Positions 4,724 to 18,262 of a stretch of 53,584 nucleotides of DNA are shown one piece after another (position 1 is the first letter of the stretch; each line of letters begins with the position of its first letter). The notes beneath the pieces are model-generated. The model was not told the origin of the DNA. It saw only the letters and a program-made list of their open reading frames with translations, and ran no database searches. Origin of the DNA: Clostridia bacterium (GTDB lineage: Bacteria > Bacillota > Clostridia > Christensenellales > Aristaeellaceae); contig JAFUGS010000097.1 in the NCBI GenBank assembly GCA_017469265.1, positions 1 to 53,584 of the forward strand, given 5' to 3'. A program made the translations under genes and the position numbers.

Positions 4724-5587
4724 ATGAACGACGTATGGACCACGGTCAACAACATGATCTGGAACCTGACCCATCGGTTGGGCATCGTGGACGTGCTGGA
4801 TATCATCATCATGGCGGCGATCCTCTACGAGTTGCTGATCCTGGTCCGCAGAACCCGCAGCAGCGCCCTGCTGAAGGGACTGATGCTGCTGCTGGTGATC
4901 GTGGCGGTCAGCTCCCTGCTGGGGCTGACGAGCCTGAACTGGTTCCTGACCTCCATCCTGAACAACGGCGCGATGGTGCTGCTGATCCTTTTCCAGCCGG
5001 AGATCCGGAAGGCGCTGGAACGCATGGGCCGCAGTTCCCTGCTGAACAAGGGACACCGGGGCAGTTCCGGGGATGAGGAACGGGAACGGATTATCACCGA
5101 GATTATCCAGACCCTGCAGGACCTGAGCCATCGACGGGTGGGCGCCCTGATCTGCTTTGAGCAGATGACGGGCCTTCAGGATGTGATTGATACCGGCACC
5201 GAGGTGGATGGAACGATTTCTGCCCCGCTGCTGGAGAATATTTTTGAGCCGAATACGCCCCTGCATGACGGCGCCGTCGTCATTCGCGAGGAACGGGTGC
5301 AGGCCGCCGCCTGCATTCTGCCGCTGACGGAGGCCAGCGGCGTATCCCGGGAGCTGGGGACCCGGCACCGGGCGGGGATTGGCCTCAGCGAAGGGACGGA
5401 CGCGGTTGTGCTGATCGTTTCCGAGGAAACGGGCACCATCAGCATGGCCCGGGGAGGCCAGCTGTTCCGCCCGCTGCAGGAGGAAGATCTGCGCCTGATT
5501 CTGGAGGAAATCTACAGCCAGAAGCCCTCCAGACTGGGGGCGTTCCTGCAGAGTCTGAGAAAGGATCGGGGGGCGGCGACCGCATGA
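4724..5587 (+). CDS. cdaA: diadenylate cyclase CdaA (c-di-AMP synthase)
   Basis: Makes c-di-AMP from two ATP molecules at the membrane. The 287-residue protein has three N-terminal membrane helices (about residues 20-40, 48-68 and 75-92), then a DAC domain with the two catalytic motifs visible: DGA in PLHDGAVVI and RHR in GTRHRAGIG. The start at 4724 follows GGAGGAACCCTG; a longer frame to 4667 begins upstream of the -10 box. It overlaps cdaR by 4 nt (ATGA), the usual cdaA-cdaR pairing in Firmicutes. glmM, often third, is missing here; instead four other genes follow. Confidence 0.95.
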   Translation: MNDVWTTVNNMIWNLTHRLGIVDVLDIIIMAAILYELLILVRRTRSSALLKGLMLLLVIVAVSSLLGLTSLNWFLTSILNNGAMVLLILFQPEIRKALERMGRSSLLNKGHRGSSGDEERERIITEIIQTLQDLSHRRVGALICFEQMTGLQDVIDTGTEVDGTISAPLLENIFEPNTPLHDGAVVIREERVQAAACILPLTEASGVSRELGTRHRAGIGLSEGTDAVVLIVSEETGTISMARGGQLFRPLQEEDLRLILEEIYSQKPSRLGAFLQSLRKDRGAATA

Positions 5588-11912: not shown

Positions 11913-12302
11913 ATGGCTAAGGTAGAATACAGCGCTGTTGGTCGCCGTAAGAAGGCCGTTGCCCGCGTCCGCCTGGTGGCCGGCGAGGGAAAAATCACCA
12001 TCAACAAGCGCGATATTGATCATTATTTCGGACTGGAGACGCTGAAAATGACCGTGCGTCAGCCCCTGGTGCTGACCAATCAGAGCGCCTTCGATGTTCA
12101 GGTCAACGTGAACGGCGGCGGCCTGTCCGGACAGGCCGGCGCCATCCGGCACGGTATCAGCCGGGCGCTGTGCAAGGTCGATCCCGACCTGCGCGCCACC
12201 CTGAAGAAAGCTGGCTTCCTGACCCGCGATCCTCGTATGAAGGAGCGGAAGAAGTACGGCCTGAAGGCTGCCCGCCGCGCGCCCCAGTTCTCCAAGCGTT
12301 AA
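11913..12302 (+). CDS. rpsI: 30S ribosomal protein S9
   Basis: 129 residues. The N-terminal [13 protein letters not shown] and the C-terminal tail ending RRAPQFSKR, whose last Arg reaches the P site, are diagnostic. AAAGGAG precedes ATG 11913. It lies 22 nt after rplM, and a strong terminator follows directly. Confidence 0.97.
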
Positions 12303-12375: not shown

Positions 12376-12404
12376 TGGACATTTGCGCGAATGTGAAGTA
12401 TAAT
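12376..12404 (+). promoter_or_regulatory. promoter of the MATE-GHKL gene
   Basis: TGGACA (12376-12381) and TATAAT (12399-12404) lie 17 nt apart. The -10 lies downstream of the in-frame ATG at 12372, so translation must start later, at 12438 or 12459. Confidence 0.7.
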
Positions 12405-12458
12405 ACGGCGAAATTCCGGCTGGCAAACAGTGCTTTCATGAAGAAGGACGGAAGACAG

Positions 12459-14219
12459 ATGATACGCAGACTGATCAAACAAATGCTGGCGGCCCAGACG
12501 CTCTCCGCCCTGACGGTGTCCCTGTGCCTGCTGATCGACAACATTATGATCTGCCGGTTCCTGGGGGAGGAGGCCATCGCGGCCTACGGCCTGGCCAACC
12601 CGATTCTGCTGATTATCGGCGCCATTGGCAGCATGCTGGCCGCCGGGGTACAGGTGGCGTGCAGCAAATCCCTGGGCAGCGGATCCAAGGAGGAAACGGA
12701 CAGAGGATATTCCTCCGCCGTGACGCTGATGCTGGGCATCTCGGTGCCGTTCGCCGCGCTGGTGCTCATTTTCCGCGGGCCGCTGGCCACCCTGATGGGC
12801 GCCGGGGCGGAGGGGGAACTGTATACCATGACCCGGGACTATCTGACCGGGTTCATCATTGGCGCCCCCGGATCCATGGGTGCCCTGGTGCTGGTGCCTT
12901 TTTTACAGATGGCCGGGCAGAGCGGTCTGCTGATCGTGGCCGTGCTGGGCATGACGGTGGCGGACGTGGCGCTGGATCTGCTGAACGTGATGGTGTTCCA
13001 CGGCGGCATGTTCGGCATGGGGCTGGCTTCTTCCCTGAGCTATTACGCGGCGATGGTCATCGCCATGATCTACTTCCTGTCCGGAAGATGCGTATTCACT
13101 TTCTCCCTGAAGCTGGTTACCTGGAAAAAGATCCGAGAGCTGTTCGTGGGGGGCATTCCCACCGTTTTTACCATGGCGTCCTCGGTGATTCTGGTGTTTG
13201 TTCTGAACAAGATTCTGCTTCCCGTGGGAGGGAGCGCCGCGGTGGCGGCTTTCTCCGTCATGATGACCATCGGCAACGCCAGCAACTGCATTTCCACGGG
13301 CGTGGGCGGTGTTTCCCTGACGCTGTCCGGCATTCTGTACAATGAGGAAGACCGGACGGGCCTGCGGGAGCTGCTGAAGCTGCTGGTCCGGTATGGGATT
13401 GTGCTCGGCGCGGTGGTAGGCGCGCTGCTGGCGGCCTTCGCGCCTGTGCTGGTTCGCGTTTTTATCCAGAATGCCGGAGCGGCCCAGCGGATGACCATCA
13501 TGGGGGTGCGTCTGTTTGCCCTGGGCCTGATTCCCTGCTGCGTCAACAACGCGCTGAAAAGCCTGTACCAGGGGACGGAACGCGTCCAGCTGACGGAGAT
13601 CCTGTCCGTGCTGGAGGGCGCCCTGCTTCCCATCCTGGCCGCGCTGGTATGCAGCCGTTTTCTGGGCGTGACAGGCGTATGGCTGTACTTCGCTGTCGGA
13701 GAATGCCTGGCCCTGCTCTGCGTCGTGGTGTTCACCTGGCGGAAGTGCGGCAGCCTGACCGCGCTGTCCCAGCAGTTTCTGCTGCTGAAAAATGATTTTG
13801 GGATTCAGCCGGAAAACCTGATGGAAAAGGATATCCTTTCCCTTCAGGATGTGACCGCGACGGCGGAAGCGGCGGGCAGGTTCTGCCGGGAACACGGGCA
13901 GAGCGAGAAAACGGCCAACCATATTTCCCTGTGCGTGGAGGAGATGGCCAGCAACACCGTGACCCATGGCTTTACGGAGGGTGGAAAAAACCATCTGTCC
14001 GTCCGGATCCAGCACAAAGGAGACCGATGGGTGCTGCGCTTCCGGGATGACTGCCGGGCCTTCGATCCGGTGCAATATGTGCCCACGGATGGGAAGGACG
14101 CGCTGGGGATCCGGCTGGTCATGGCGATGGCGGAGGACATCCGGTACACCTATTCCCTGAACCTGAACAACCTGACCATCAAGCTGCGCGGAACAGCGGA
14201 TCATCCGTCCATGCAATGA
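12459..14219 (+). CDS. MATE-family transporter fused to a C-terminal GHKL (RsbW-like) ATPase domain
   Basis: 586 residues. Residues 1 to about 445 are a 12-helix MATE (MatE/NorM-type) drug/Na+ antiporter with two homologous halves. After about residue 455 comes a soluble domain of the HATPase_c_2 anti-sigma-kinase type: the N-box CVEEMASNTVTHGF has the E-x3-N pattern, then FRDDCRAFDP (a G1-like box in which the usual Gly is missing) and ALGIRLVMAMAEDI (G2-like). So a transporter carries on its cytoplasmic end a domain that in SpoIIAB/RsbW binds ATP, phosphorylates a STAS protein and is released from its target. The start at 12459 follows AAGGACGG and lies past the promoter. The next gene encodes exactly such a STAS protein. 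Confidence 0.85.
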   Translation: MIRRLIKQMLAAQTLSALTVSLCLLIDNIMICRFLGEEAIAAYGLANPILLIIGAIGSMLAAGVQVACSKSLGSGSKEETDRGYSSAVTLMLGISVPFAALVLIFRGPLATLMGAGAEGELYTMTRDYLTGFIIGAPGSMGALVLVPFLQMAGQSGLLIVAVLGMTVADVALDLLNVMVFHGGMFGMGLASSLSYYAAMVIAMIYFLSGRCVFTFSLKLVTWKKIRELFVGGIPTVFTMASSVILVFVLNKILLPVGGSAAVAAFSVMMTIGNASNCISTGVGGVSLTLSGILYNEEDRTGLRELLKLLVRYGIVLGAVVGALLAAFAPVLVRVFIQNAGAAQRMTIMGVRLFALGLIPCCVNNALKSLYQGTERVQLTEILSVLEGALLPILAALVCSRFLGVTGVWLYFAVGECLALLCVVVFTWRKCGSLTALSQQFLLLKNDFGIQPENLMEKDILSLQDVTATAEAAGRFCREHGQSEKTANHISLCVEEMASNTVTHGFTEGGKNHLSVRIQHKGDRWVLRFRDDCRAFDPVQYVPTDGKDALGIRLVMAMAEDIRYTYSLNLNNLTIKLRGTADHPSMQ

Positions 14220-14220
14220 A

Positions 14221-14252
14221 AAACATTCCGGAAAAGAAAAAACATTCCGGAA
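14221..14252 (+). repeat. tandem TTCCGGAA palindromes upstream of the STAS promoter
   Basis: Two copies of AAACATTCCGGAAAA start 19 nt apart (14221 and 14240), each centred on the palindrome TTCCGGAA (14226-14233 and 14245-14252). The second ends 6 nt before the -35 box, the usual place for an activator or repressor. They lie just after the stop of the MATE-GHKL gene. The binding protein is unknown. Confidence 0.55.
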
Positions 14253-14258
14253 AAAGAA

Positions 14259-14287
14259 TTGACTTTGACGGGAAGCATTGATAATAT
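14259..14287 (+). promoter_or_regulatory. promoter of the STAS gene pair
   Basis: TTGACT (14259-14264) and TAATAT (14282-14287) have a 17-nt spacer. Thus the STAS gene and its partner have their own transcript, starting near 14294, in addition to possible readthrough from 12376. Confidence 0.7.
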
Positions 14288-14293
14288 AAGCCA

Positions 14294-14466
14294 AGGTCAC
14301 GGCTTTCGTGCGGGAGGCGCCGGGCTGGCGCGGACACGAAAGGAGACGGCCGTAAAGGACCCATGGACCGGTACCGGCAGAGCCTCGCCGATGCAGCGCG
14401 GTTCGTTCGGCAACGCGCGGGGATCAGGGAATCCCTGCCAGAAAAACAATGAAGGAGGAAACGAAA
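14294..14466 (+). promoter_or_regulatory. structured 5' leader of the STAS operon
   Basis: The 170-nt leader begins with a stacked hairpin: ACGGC/GCCGT (14299-14303, 14349-14353), TTTCGTG/CACGAAA (14304-14310, 14335-14341) and an inner GCGCC/GGCGC (14317-14321, 14327-14331). An asymmetric GGAGAC-containing bulge lies on the 3' side. It does not match a riboswitch consensus that I know. The rest of the leader holds a small ORF (14363-14452) that ends at the ribosome binding site of the STAS gene. Confidence 0.45.
14363..14452 (+). CDS. possible 29-aa leader ORF before the STAS gene
   Basis: ATG 14363, preceded by AAAGGAC, opens MDRYRQSLADAARFVRQRAG... and stops at 14452, right at the AAGGAGGA that serves the STAS gene at 14467. 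The N-terminal helix weakly resembles the start of purine-nucleoside phosphorylase, so it could be a gene relic as well as a leader peptide. Translation through it would bring ribosomes to the STAS start. Confidence 0.3.
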   Translation: MDRYRQSLADAARFVRQRAGIRESLPEKQ

Positions 14467-14763
14467 ATGACGATCAACAAAGAACAGCAGGGCAGTACCC
14501 TGACGATTGCGCTGGCGGGCCGCCTGGACACGACCACGTCCCCGGAGCTGGAGAAGGAACTGAAGGCTTCTCTGGACGGTGTGGACAGCCTGGTCCTGGA
14601 TTTCTCCAAACTGGATTACATCTCCTCCGCCGGGCTGCGGGTGCTTCTGGCCGCCCATAAGCAGATGAGCGCCAAGGGCGGCATGACGGTCAAAAACGTG
14701 AATGAAATCGTGAGCGAAGTGTTCGAAGTGACGGGGTTTGCCGATATCCTGAATATTGCGTGA
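14467..14763 (+). CDS. STAS-domain anti-sigma-factor-antagonist-like protein (SpoIIAA/RsbV type)
   Basis: 98 residues, a single STAS domain. The phosphoacceptor region DYISSAGLRVLLAAHK has the conserved Ser-x-Gly pattern of SpoIIAA/RsbV, and the first strands (GSTLTIALAGRLDTTTSPEL) are typical. In partner switching such a protein is phosphorylated by a GHKL kinase and, when unphosphorylated, binds it. The candidate kinase is the C-terminal domain of the upstream MATE fusion, 250 nt away. ATG 14467 is chosen because AAGGAGGA lies just ahead; the in-frame ATG at 14449 overlaps that site. No sigma factor gene is nearby. Confidence 0.9.
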   Translation: MTINKEQQGSTLTIALAGRLDTTTSPELEKELKASLDGVDSLVLDFSKLDYISSAGLRVLLAAHKQMSAKGGMTVKNVNEIVSEVFEVTGFADILNIA

Positions 14764-14772
14764 GGTATCAAG

Positions 14773-15378
14773 ATGAGAACGGATGTAATCACGGTTTCGA
14801 GCCGGGGCAGCCAGATGGAAACGGCGCTGTCCCAGGTGGATAAAGTGGCCGCGTACAAGGGCCTGAGCGGGAAAAGCGCCCTCCATCTGCGCCTGCTTAC
14901 GGAAGAAATGATGAGCATGATGCGGTCCATCACCGGGGAAACAGAAGGGCAGTTCTGGATTGAGGACGAGGAAAACGTGTATCAGCTTCATCTGCGGGTG
15001 GAGACGGCGATGGACAGCGAAAAGCGGGGCAAGCTGCTTTCCGCGGCCAGCACGGGCCGGAACGAGTCTGCCCGGGGCCTCATGGGCCGGCTGCGGGACT
15101 TCTTTGACCGCGGCGCGGACGAGGATGTGGCCGCGTTTTCCAGCCCCCTGATGTACGCCGGGATGTACGATCATTCCACCTCCCCGACGCTGGACTGGGA
15201 ATGGTCCATGACCCAGTACGAAAGCGCCCTGTCCTACCGTGTGAAGCAGAACGATACAGCCGCCAGGGACGCCTGGGACGAGCTGGAAAAATCCGTGGTG
15301 GCCAGGGTGGCTGACGAAGTGAAGGTGGCCATCCGGGGCCGTACCGTGGAAATGACGATCATCAAGAAACTGGCGTAA
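14773..15378 (+). CDS. degenerate GHKL-like partner protein (201 aa), function unknown
   Basis: The first 80 residues follow the layout of an RsbW-type ATPase: a strand-helix start (VITVSSRGSQMETALSQVDKV), then LHLRLLTEEMMSMMRSITGE, where the N-box Glu is present but the Mg-binding Asn is replaced. No G1 or G2 glycine motifs are visible afterwards, so ATP binding is doubtful. Residues about 90-150 form an insert of helices and a Met/Tyr/Trp-rich stretch, and the end (DEVKVAIRGRTVEMTIIKKL) returns to beta strands. It starts 9 nt after the STAS gene and shares its transcript and terminator. It could be a decoy or regulator for the STAS protein; this is inference. Confidence 0.65.
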   Translation: MRTDVITVSSRGSQMETALSQVDKVAAYKGLSGKSALHLRLLTEEMMSMMRSITGETEGQFWIEDEENVYQLHLRVETAMDSEKRGKLLSAASTGRNESARGLMGRLRDFFDRGADEDVAAFSSPLMYAGMYDHSTSPTLDWEWSMTQYESALSYRVKQNDTAARDAWDELEKSVVARVADEVKVAIRGRTVEMTIIKKLA

Positions 15379-15387
15379 AGGCAAATG

Positions 15388-15420
15388 AAAAAGAGCTGTC
15401 ATGACGGCAGCTCTTTTTTC
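15388..15420. terminator. bidirectional terminator between the STAS and ZorAB-like operons
   Basis: The stem AAAGAGCTG/CAGCTCTTT (15390-15398, 15408-15416) has A-rich and T-rich flanks and can stop transcripts from both converging operons. Confidence 0.85.
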
Positions 15421-15431
15421 GTGCTTCCGGG

Positions 15432-15914
15432 TCAGGGGCTGTAGGTGACCCGGGAGGAGAAGGGAAGACCCCAGAGGTAATACGTCAGGGTTAGCTCCCG
15501 CACATTGTGCATGTCCTTCCGGGTCAGAATCGTGGCGGTGAACTGGCCTTCCGAACGGGGCGCCAGATCGTGGGCTTCCAGATCGCTGATCTGGAGGACG
15601 TCCCCGTTCATGGGGGTCACCTGAATCTCGATGACCTCGGCCCGGAGAAAGGTGCTGTTTTTCAGGCGCAGGGCGTACTCATAGAACTGATAGTCCCCGG
15701 CGTCTCCCAGAGCTGCGGTGTCGAAGGGGGTGCCGGTAAAGGCTTCCGCGGCCAGCTGATCCTTCAGCGCCTGAAAGGCCACGGCCTGATCCTGGGCGTC
15801 GTAGGCGGTGCAGCGCACCTCCGTGACTTCCAGGTTCGCGGTGAGATACAGGTATCCCGTGCCGGCCAGGGCGGCCAGGCAGAGTACCATCAGCAGGATG
15901 GCGACAGGTCTCAT
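15432..15914 (-). CDS. small membrane-anchored extracytoplasmic protein of the ZorAB-like operon
   Basis: 160 residues. One N-terminal helix (residues about 4-24, VAILLMVLCLAALAGTGYLY) acts as an anchor or uncleaved signal, followed by a beta-rich extracytoplasmic domain of about 130 residues. No lipobox Cys and no recognised family. Its start overlaps the stop of the MotB/OmpA-like gene (ATGA), so the three genes form one operon and this protein probably works beside the channel on the outer face. It has no similarity to ZorC, ZorD or ZorE that I can see. Confidence 0.7.
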   Translation of the reverse strand: MRPVAILLMVLCLAALAGTGYLYLTANLEVTEVRCTAYDAQDQAVAFQALKDQLAAEAFTGTPFDTAALGDAGDYQFYEYALRLKNSTFLRAEVIEIQVTPMNGDVLQISDLEAHDLAPRSEGQFTATILTRKDMHNVRELTLTYYLWGLPFSSRVTYSP

Positions 15915-16930
15915 GGCTGCGTATCCCCCAAATCATTTTCCTGCAGAATCCGCTGCATTTCCTCAATCATGTCGGAATCCCGGAGAGAGAATTTGAATTC
16001 AACCCGGCGGGAGGCTTCCGGATCCTCCTGCCCGTTCTGATCATATTTCAGATCCGCCCAGGAACGGCCCGTGGCGGTCAGAATCTGCTGCAGCAGGGCG
16101 ACCTGCTGCCGGGAGAGGCCGGGCATGTTCAGCACATACAGGGCGACCTGGAGGGCCCGCTGCTGGCTGAGCTTCAGGTTGTTGTCATAGGTGCCGGTGG
16201 AATCGGTATGACCCTCGATGATGATCTCCCCGAGATAATCCGCGTACTGATCGCTGAGCAGCACGTTCAGGTACACCGGGATGAAGCGGTCCAGCAGCCG
16301 CTTGCCTTCCTCCTTGATGTCCGATTTGCCGGTTTCAAAGAAGACCGCGCTGTCCAGGACGATGGAACCGTTGTTGGGATCCACGGTAGCCTTCAGATCC
16401 GCGGCGGAAAGGGAGGAGGACAGATCCCGGATGATGTTGGTGCGCACGCCGACCAGGTCATCGATACGGGCGGCCTGCAGGGCCAGGGCCTGCTGCTGCT
16501 CCTCCAGTTTGACCGTGGCGGAGGCCAGGGCCTGCTGCTGCTCCTCCAGTTTGACCGTGGCGGAGGCCAGGGCCGCTTCCTTTTCCTTCAGCTGGGCCTG
16601 CAGCGCGGCCAGAAGCTGCTCCCGGGTGAGCAGGGCGGCGTTGGCTTCGTCCAGCTCCGTCTGCTTCGCGGAAAGGGAAAGCTGCAGATCCTTCAGCTCC
16701 GTTTCCCGGTCATCCAGCAGGGTCTGCTGAGCCAGCAAGAGGGCCTGCTGTTCCTCCAGTTCCGCGGTTTTTGTTTCCAGCATGGTGAAATACTGGTACA
16801 GGCTGTAGGTCAGGATCAGCACAAAAATCAGCAGCAGGGCCGCCATCATGTCGGAATAGCTGATCCAGGACGCGCCGCCGCCGGTGGCCCCCCGGCCAGC
16901 CCGGCGGTTATGGATGGATTGACGTGCCAT
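15911..16930 (-). CDS. MotB/ZorB-like channel subunit with OmpA peptidoglycan-binding domain
   Basis: 339 residues. A single N-terminal membrane helix begins SWISYSDMMAALLLIFVLILT; the Asp in YSDMM sits where MotB and ZorB carry the ion-binding Asp. A coiled coil follows (about residues 50-155), containing two exact copies of ALASATVKLEEQQQ. The C-terminal half is an OmpA/MotB domain with IIIEGHTDSTGTYDNNLKLSQQRA. The protein thus spans from membrane to cell wall. GAGGAGG precedes the ATG, 4 nt after the MotA-like stop. It is probably the stator-like partner of that protein. Confidence 0.85.
   Translation of the reverse strand: MARQSIHNRRAGRGATGGGASWISYSDMMAALLLIFVLILTYSLYQYFTMLETKTAELEEQQALLLAQQTLLDDRETELKDLQLSLSAKQTELDEANAALLTREQLLAALQAQLKEKEAALASATVKLEEQQQALASATVKLEEQQQALALQAARIDDLVGVRTNIIRDLSSSLSAADLKATVDPNNGSIVLDSAVFFETGKSDIKEEGKRLLDRFIPVYLNVLLSDQYADYLGEIIIEGHTDSTGTYDNNLKLSQQRALQVALYVLNMPGLSRQQVALLQQILTATGRSWADLKYDQNGQEDPEASRRVEFKFSLRDSDMIEEMQRILQENDLGDTQP
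16481..16574 (-). repeat. exact 42-bp tandem repeat in the coiled-coil region
   Basis: Two identical 42-bp units (16481-16522, 16523-16564) plus 10 bp of a third. They encode the 14-residue repeat in the coiled coil of the MotB/OmpA-like protein. Perfect identity at the DNA level indicates a recent duplication, or length variation in the population. Confidence 0.85.
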
Positions 16931-16934
16931 GCGT

Positions 16935-18230
16935 TCAGACCTCCTCGGACAGGGCGGTCAGGGTTTCGGAAATACCGCGGACGCTTTCGTTCAGGGAAGC
17001 CGTGACCTCCCGGATGCCGGCCAGGGTGTCCTCCGTCCGCTCCCGGGCCCGCAGATCCGGAATGGCTTCCACCCGGGCGGACAGGGTGTCCATCAGGGCG
17101 GCCAGGGACTGATGCTGTTTTTCCATCCGGGCGAGCAGCTCCGCGGAACGCTTCTCGAAGGATTCATCCCGCTGCCGGGTGGACTGGAGAACCGACACAT
17201 AGCTGTCGAAGCGGGAAAGCAGCTGGTCTGTCTGCTGCTGGAGAGACTGGGCGTCCCGCACGATGCCGCCCGCGGCACGCAGGGTGTCCGCCGTTTCCTG
17301 TACGGCCTGACGCTGCTGGGCGGTCATCTGATCCAGGGCGGTGCCGAGGGCGCTGAAGTTTCCGCCCAGAGAGGTGTTCATTTCCTCCAGAAAACGACCC
17401 ACAATACGGTTGACTCCCTCGATCTGATTCCGGGTGGCGCCGACGATGAAGCGGTCCATGGAGGCGGAAACCGGATTCATGGCGCTGGTGATGGCCAGGC
17501 CCACATTTTCGGCCAGCCGGTCCGCCAGGGTCTCGTTGATGCCCTGGAGCATATGATTCCGGTCCTGATTCTGGCAGATCAGCTGGACGTCGTTATCCAG
17601 GGGCCGGGACATGGCCAGCTGGGTGAAGGACGAAACAAAATTGTCGATGGCCCGGTAGCTGGAACCCTGGGAGATCCGGTTCAGCATATTGAAAACCAGG
17701 GAGCAGGAGATGCCGGCCACCGAGGTGCCAAAGGCGAAACGCATGCCGGAAAGCAGATTCGGGATGCCGGAAATCAGCTGGGAGGCATCGGCGAAATTCA
17801 GGCTGGAAAGTCCCCGGGACAGGCCCATGAAGGTCCCCAGGATGCCCAGGGAGGTCAGCAGATTCGGGATCAGCTCCGCCAGGGTGGCGTTGCCGTGGGA
17901 ATGGGTGACCGTATCATCGTTGATGTAATCCTCCACGTTGGTGGGAAGGCCCCGCCGGTCCAGCTGCTCCGCGTTCTGGAGAAAGCGCAGCCAGGAACCC
18001 CGCATCCGGCGGCCCAGAAAGCTGGCTTCCTGCCAGACGGGCTTGCCGGATTCCCCGGCGTGATCCTGCAGGCGGCGGATGGCCCGGCGCAGGGCGGACG
18101 AGGTCTGCCAGAGGGGAAAGAGACACTTAAACACGCCAATCAGCGTGACGATGGCAATTACGGCATATACGATATAATCAGCCAGATCCGGCAGGATCGC
18201 GGTAACCTTGGACAGGTCGGGCAGCGACAT
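16935..18230 (-). CDS. MotA/TolQ/ExbB-family channel protein, ZorA-like with coiled-coil tail
   Basis: 431 residues with three membrane segments: about residues 20-44, then after a 90-residue cytoplasmic stretch LAELIPNLLTSLGILGTFMG and MRFAFGTSVAGISCSLVFNM, the paired helices that form the ion path in MotA/ExbB/ZorA proteins. The last 220 residues are a long helical, coiled-coil cytoplasmic tail (QQRQAVQETADTLR..., ESFEKRSAELLARMEKQHQS), the hallmark of ZorA rather than MotA, though shorter than in known Zorya systems. ATG 18230 is chosen over the upstream TTG at 18248 because AAGGAGGAC lies between them. First gene of a three-gene operon. Confidence 0.85.
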   Translation of the reverse strand: MSLPDLSKVTAILPDLADYIVYAVIAIVTLIGVFKCLFPLWQTSSALRRAIRRLQDHAGESGKPVWQEASFLGRRMRGSWLRFLQNAEQLDRRGLPTNVEDYINDDTVTHSHGNATLAELIPNLLTSLGILGTFMGLSRGLSSLNFADASQLISGIPNLLSGMRFAFGTSVAGISCSLVFNMLNRISQGSSYRAIDNFVSSFTQLAMSRPLDNDVQLICQNQDRNHMLQGINETLADRLAENVGLAITSAMNPVSASMDRFIVGATRNQIEGVNRIVGRFLEEMNTSLGGNFSALGTALDQMTAQQRQAVQETADTLRAAGGIVRDAQSLQQQTDQLLSRFDSYVSVLQSTRQRDESFEKRSAELLARMEKQHQSLAALMDTLSARVEAIPDLRARERTEDTLAGIREVTASLNESVRGISETLTALSEEV

Positions 18231-18262
18231 CGGACAGTCCTCCTTCAAACATGGGATGCTTC

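Follow-up and report, generated by a model that had tools for sequence, protein, structure and literature searches.

The window analyzed here is a stretch of 53,584 nucleotides (contig JAFUGS010000097.1, or C103) from the 2.57-Mb Clostridia bacterium assembly GCA_017469265.1, and it carries three open, intact and conserved genes in the same (+) orientation. They encode a fusion of a MATE transporter with a C-terminal GHKL domain (MATE·GHKL), a stand-alone STAS protein and a third protein, here called P3. The fusion, STAS and P3 very probably belong to one partner-switching module. The best explanation that can be offered, and we hold it as an even call, is that these genes form the membrane output of such a module, which would work without a sigma factor and have MATE as its client. 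A sequence-only reading of this DNA had proposed a tie between partner switching and a transporter here, and this idea is supported by relatives, which repeatedly link MATE·GHKL to STAS, PP2C, RsbW and P3. The three-gene set of that reading is real, and it is part of a larger module that includes a dCache-HAMP-PP2C protein and an RsbW-like kinase on another contig, C36.

The transporter fusion

Both halves of the 586-aa (amino acid) fusion are matched by Pfam within a single protein, as the sequence-only reading had it: MatE at 3e-27 (95.7 bits against a cut-off of 24.9), in two stretches that correspond to repeats, and the RsbW/SpoIIAB-like HATPase_c_2 at 3.8e-11 (43.5 bits against 27.4). The start codon agrees with relatives beginning at the same place (e.g., the ATG at 3292 in L002), and five relatives that are 58-77% identical occur in metagenome-assembled genomes titled uncultured Clostridia or Clostridiales bacterium. 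The MATE half is similar to stand-alone MATE pumps (TIGR00797 and relatives), but its match to TIGR00797 (3.3e-35, 121.8 bits) is under the 147.4-bit cut-off and it bears a GHKL tail. The first-helix Asp of LIDNIMI (residue 27 of the protein) is the commonest residue at its position, occurring in 90% or more of the 59 genes aligned; a first-helix Asp is kept in working MATE pumps.

The fused GHKL profile aligns with the stand-alone RsbW-like protein of the same genome at a probability of 95.7%. Among 38 relatives, the Glu-Glu and Asn of the N-box, the Asp of G1 and the last Gly of G2 are each kept in 38, and nucleotide binding by the domain is plausible from its motifs. The domain is one candidate STAS kinase among others. 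A PDB sequence search with it returned only two Ig-like entries (E 0.02, over poor stretches), and a plasmid search with the fusion gave zero matches. A defence role of the three-gene set was considered and set aside, as neither the fusion nor P3 matched PADLOC at E 0.001.

The STAS protein

The STAS protein is matched by Pfam (5.2e-17) and by the NCBIfam anti-anti-sigma family TIGR00377 (74.8 bits against a cut-off of 53.45), and its sequence matches solved STAS proteins. In its motif YISSAGLRVLL, Ser54 is aligned on the Ser of the SpoIIAA motif MDSSGL, which we take to be the phosphorylated Ser58. The position is Ser in 44/44 aligned STAS proteins (own included), which upholds the SpoIIAA-type Ser read earlier from the sequence; by analogy, Ser54 would be phosphorylated. 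Pfam STAS was found across the genome at one place, within the window; this and all other genome searches cover the assembled part (91.75% completeness).

P3 is a conserved family

P3 has no match above the cut-offs of Pfam and NCBIfam, PHROGs holds nothing similar at E 0.1, and a PDB sequence search up to E 10 was likewise empty. The sequence-only reading had ascribed to it a GHKL layout with a broken N-box. The N-box Asn is indeed absent, being Met or Leu in 43/43 family sequences and missing in 32/32 of a wider set, and two Glu at the N-box are invariant in both sets (43/43 and 32/32). Because Met or Leu replaces Asn in all family sequences, the "broken" N-box is a family trait and not decay. 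By eye, neither the family nor the wider alignment has a G1 or a GGxG motif.

The GHKL layout itself was addressed by profile comparison. When the P3 family profile was compared with the fused GHKL by hhalign, the probability was only 29% (E 5.8e-4), a weak value, and the score was reached by 0/100 column-shuffled controls; the wider P3 profile gave E 0.0042, likewise reached by 0/100 shuffles. The N-box positions are aligned with each other in these comparisons. Against the RsbW set, scores were weak and were reached by 4/100 (out of register) and 1/100 shuffles; the C-terminal helix-strand of P3 can be aligned to RsbW in register, with a poor score, and the single RsbW-like sequence of C36 gave no signal (probability 0.1%). 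HATPase_c_2 of Pfam was touched by 1/32 P3 members, at E 0.13. On these comparisons we treat P3 as a probable, still putative GHKL relative.

The family was found in 141/300 genomes of the family sample and 30/391 of the class sample (own included). A STAS gene lies within 120 bases of P3 on the same strand at 27/30 best family places (own included) and at 12/29 class places; at several of the remaining class places, STAS, PP2C and an RsbW domain are found a few kilobases off. The sequence-only reading had suggested that P3 may be a decoy. P3 as a decayed gene, or as a decoy found in this genome alone, was rejected, because the protein is conserved across 43 sequences of the family and 32 of mixed classes, and as a family beside STAS. 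A Cas1 assignment was also rejected (Pfam E 0.029, below cut-off, in 2/32 members).

Butyrivibrio fibrisolvens plasmid pNP243 encodes a protein of 399 aa, annotated as hypothetical, part of which is P3-like (L229:6368-7567), and relatives in family f31 have two P3 domains per frame of about 400 aa.

Linkage among relatives

The fused-type GHKL domain was detected in 141/300 family genomes at E 1e-3, a threshold at which the lowest-scoring hits could be different GHKL proteins, and in 24/391 class genomes at 1e-12. Open frames of 570-673 aa were present at 28/30 class places among the matches listed. In the phylum sample the GHKL domain, counted irrespective of a MATE half, was found in 6/299 genomes (own included). 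At the genome level, P3 is carried by 83 of the 88 family genomes with a fusion match at 1e-37 (own excluded), against 57 of the 211 others (Fisher's exact test, 4e-29). In the class sample P3 was found in 11/23 genomes with a GHKL match and in 18/367 others (4e-8; 2e-8 without G566, which is not a MATE fusion).

Gene neighbourhoods were mapped in fetched stretches. The 60 family stretches comprise 40 best fusion places (own excluded), 11 weaker hand-picked fusion places and 9 P3 places; the class stretches comprise 20 around P3 places and a further set of 19 around GHKL matches plus 1 P3 place, with 7/30 listed class GHKL places outside the fetched set. With small purpose-made profiles, 77 fusion genes were mapped, of which 75 are distinct and two come from contigs present twice. 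A partner-switching gene (STAS, PP2C, RsbW-like kinase or P3) lies within 7 kb of the fusion at 40/77, a STAS gene at 28/77 and a PP2C gene at 22/77; at 22/77 a partner-switching gene lies no more than 300 bases away on the same strand. P3 and/or STAS occur in the fetched stretch at 19 of the 40 best family fusion loci. Compared with a rough chance figure of 1-4%, estimated from copy number, the linkage is well above expectation (binomial, 1e-27 to 1.6e-16). Linked rows number 26/56 within the family and 14/21 outside it, in 10/12 families; when L162, L165 and L176, which were fetched as P3 places, are left out, 11/18 rows in 7/10 families are linked outside the family.

Gene order varies among these loci (MATE-STAS-P3, STAS-P3-MATE, PP2C-MATE, and convergent arrangements), thus the linkage is not one frozen block. 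Two of the 77 fusions overlap a partner-switching gene by four bases: in L002, the PP2C stop overlaps the MATE·GHKL start (ATGA), with STAS and P3 upstream, and in L056 P3 and MATE·GHKL overlap. PP2C-HATPase_c_2 fusions were observed near P3 in other families.

Some loci in other Clostridia families have STAS-APH-HATPase_c_2 triple fusions near MATE·GHKL (L165:9937-11538, L202:9705-11333, L198:7142-8716), and STAS-APH without the GHKL part was seen in L096, L204 and L168. Immediately 3' of STAS-P3 at L067, L075, L093 and L110-L113 are genes for an ABC ATPase whose N-terminus bears membrane segments and for an ABC-2 permease (clusters c3 and c6). Another gene cluster recurs near STAS-P3 at L107, L109 and L111-L113. 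Its representative, taken from L112, encodes a GGDEF protein and so brings to mind the SiaABCD system discussed below, where a cyclase is the output.

The rest of the switch and sigma factors

A PP2C phosphatase, a GHKL kinase and STAS were all detected in this genome. Contig C36 encodes a 727-aa dCache-HAMP-SpoIIE (PP2C) phosphatase. Next comes an RsbW-like open reading frame (ORF) with complete motifs, which begins two bases past the phosphatase stop codon if its start is the ATG at 5012. The fused GHKL is therefore not the sole candidate kinase. Two other matches were rejected as partners: a second SpoIIE match on C36 and a HATPase_c_2 match on C98, both beside ORFs that by eye resemble iron-sulphur hydrogenase-type proteins.

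No sigma factor had been seen nearby in the sequence-only reading. This holds for the assembled genome as far as SigB/F/G-type factors are concerned, none of which is over the 234.35-bit cut-off of TIGR02980; the best match (135.7 bits, C98) is below the cut-off and is probably the housekeeping sigma factor, and four weaker matches accompany it.

Proposed mechanism and its alternatives

A working scheme can be formulated as follows. The C36 sensor phosphatase and the stand-alone RsbW-like kinase would determine whether Ser54 of the sole detected STAS is phosphorylated. Unphosphorylated STAS would dock on partners of GHKL fold, namely the fused GHKL domain and P3. The fused domain, which keeps the N-box and the G1 Asp, might also re-phosphorylate STAS, while P3 would be an ATP-dead reader unable to reset it. 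The MATE half would replace the sigma factor as client, and transport would be gated in cis upon binding or leaving of STAS. In this full form, with a STAS switch gating the MATE antiporter through the fused GHKL and a dead GHKL-like P3 as a third, competing reader of STAS, the scheme is tentative, and we think it possible rather than probable. The genes, their domains and conserved residues, the recurrent linkage, the co-occurrence and the lack of a SigB/F/G match over cut-off are observed; the phosphorylation of STAS, the choice of GHKL proteins that would bind it, the direction of signal (MATE as output rather than sensor), the gating of transport, and the fold and role of P3 are what we infer.

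Several observations weigh against the proposed module. Within 7 kb, 37/77 fusions have no partner-switching gene and 49/77 have no STAS gene. The sequence-only reading was to be abandoned if homologous fusions mostly lacked an adjacent STAS gene, and taken by the letter, most of them do. The count is softened by the number of fusions linked to any partner-switching gene, by the genome-level pairing with P3 and by the PP2C and RsbW links, because partner switches can act in trans. The PP2C and RsbW genes of this genome are on a contig separate from the window, and the module would therefore need to act in trans here. The 77 mapped fusions were chosen as best hits or by hand rather than at random, and the co-occurrence tests ignore phylogeny and shared descent. 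In L002, a terminator-like hairpin (by eye) stands between P3 and PP2C. The fused domain also departs from RsbW: the G1 Gly is replaced by Cys in 37/38, so that the DxG form of G1 is lost, none of the 38 has the GG pair that precedes the final G2 Gly, and the lid is shortened in the alignments, whereas DxG and GGxG are found in 12/12 sequences of the RsbW-like comparison set. Because of these departures, the fused GHKL may bind ATP poorly. Furthermore, the homology of P3 to GHKL is weak, and with an assembly that is 91.75% complete, another STAS or a sigma factor could be missing.

The main rival takes MATE·GHKL as an input, where MATE would sense a ligand or ion and control the STAS kinase, and STAS would have P3 or something else as its target, for instance the ABC-2 transporter genes found after some STAS-P3 pairs. 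It owes this standing to the ATP residues retained in the N-box and in G1. The invariance (38/38) of Glu and Asn in the N-box, of Asp in G1 and of the final Gly in G2 suggests that nucleotide chemistry has been kept. Nine STAS-P3 loci have no fusion in the stretch (L105-L113, picked partly for having none listed on the contig), and at four of them ABC-2 ATPase and permease clusters c3 and c6 follow; single genomes also hold up to seven matches to the fused domain. However, the dCache-HAMP PP2C already provides an input, a stand-alone RsbW-like kinase is present, and the MATE half retains the first-helix Asp of working pumps. A sensor role of MATE is considered unlikely.

The fusions that stand without a partner-switching gene within 7 kb, together with the differences between the fused domain and RsbW, could also be explained if GHKL were an ATP-sensing or self-regulating tail of MATE that is unrelated to STAS, with coincidental neighbours. 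Such coincidence is improbable given a linkage well above the rough chance figure, its recurrence in 10/12 other families and several gene orders, and the overlapping reading frames in L002 and L056. Finally, the set could be an ordinary anti-sigma partner switch with its sigma factor elsewhere and the MATE fusion as a side component. STAS is a good TIGR00377 member, just 91.75% of the genome is assembled, and there are four weaker SigBFG matches in addition to the best; on the other side, no SigB/F/G factor is over cut-off in this genome, relatives not having been searched for sigma factors, and we regard this account as very improbable.

Relation to known systems

Partner switching and sigma-free outputs are already known. 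SpoIIAA/SpoIIAB/SpoIIE and RsbV/RsbW/RsbU are the partner-switching systems of Bacillus subtilis (PMC11418112). The system proposed here shares with them a STAS protein with the same Ser, a GHKL kinase and a PP2C phosphatase (SpoIIE family match), but no sigma client was found, GHKL is fused to MATE, the conserved P3 is additional, and the genes are dispersed and reshuffled. A non-sigma output is shared with SiaABCD of Pseudomonas aeruginosa, a PP2C-kinase-antagonist switch whose output enzyme is the diguanylate cyclase SiaD (PMC7647112). The client there is a separate cyclase, whereas the candidate client here is a transporter fused to GHKL, with P3 in addition. SypA can be compared together with SypE, which is reportedly a multi-domain response regulator. 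SypA of Vibrio fischeri is a STAS protein active when unphosphorylated, with no anti-sigma role shown and the target unknown, and the available text of that source describes no transporter fusion (PMC4517449). SulP/SLC26 transporters bear STAS tails (PMC8256260). STAS is tied to a transporter there, as it would be here; there STAS is in cis, whereas here GHKL is in cis and STAS in trans.

Among the titles and abstract openings listed, which include few subscription papers and no bioRxiv preprints, neither a MATE-GHKL fusion in such a module nor the P3 family was found. If the proposed reading is true, partner switching would reach beyond transcription and c-di-GMP enzymes and control membrane transport directly. 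The unnamed P3 family would gain a role, as would efflux-type transporters with an extra domain that went unnoticed in the literature searched.

Gene arrangement and neighbouring features

The three genes are flanked by a ribosomal-protein-like ORF upstream and a terminator-like hairpin downstream (Table 1). STAS and P3 are nine bases apart. The fusion and STAS-P3 may form two transcription units, because the 247-base gap between the fusion and STAS contains a promoter-like site. Three promoter-like sites were found in the region, compared with a mean of 0.6 in shuffles. A structured RNA leader 5' of STAS was considered and rejected, with no Rfam match at gathering scores in the window and a fold z of 0.76.

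Table 1. Coordinates of the three genes and surrounding features in the window.
Feature	Position	Strand	Basis or remark
Ribosomal-protein-like ORF	11913-12302		Named by eye
Sigma-70-like promoter, TGGACA-17-TATAAT, 11/12	12376..12404	+	5' of MATE·GHKL gene; consensus match only
MATE·GHKL fusion, 586 aa	12459..14219	+	MatE and HATPase_c_2 in one protein
MATE transporter half	12459..13784	+	Pfam MatE
C-terminal GHKL / HATPase_c_2 half	13785..14216	+	Pfam HATPase_c_2
Sigma-70-like promoter, TTGACT-17-TAATAT, 9/12	14259..14287	+	In the gap 5' of STAS; consensus match only
Single-domain STAS protein, 98 aa	14467..14763 (alternative start 14449)	+	Pfam, NCBIfam
Ser54 codon, predicted phosphorylation site	14626..14628	+	Alignment; role inferred from SpoIIAA/RsbV
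P3 (201 aa), of an uncharacterised family; its fold may be a degenerate GHKL that lacks ATP motifs	14773..15378	+	
Terminator-like hairpin and T run	15395..15419	+	3' of P3

Convergent with P3, a further three-gene set is located at 15432-18248 on the (-) strand. It encodes a ZorA-like MotA/ExbB protein of 437 aa (PADLOC ZorA1, 1.3e-25), a ZorB-like OmpA/MotB protein of 339 aa (4e-67) and a 160-aa unknown.

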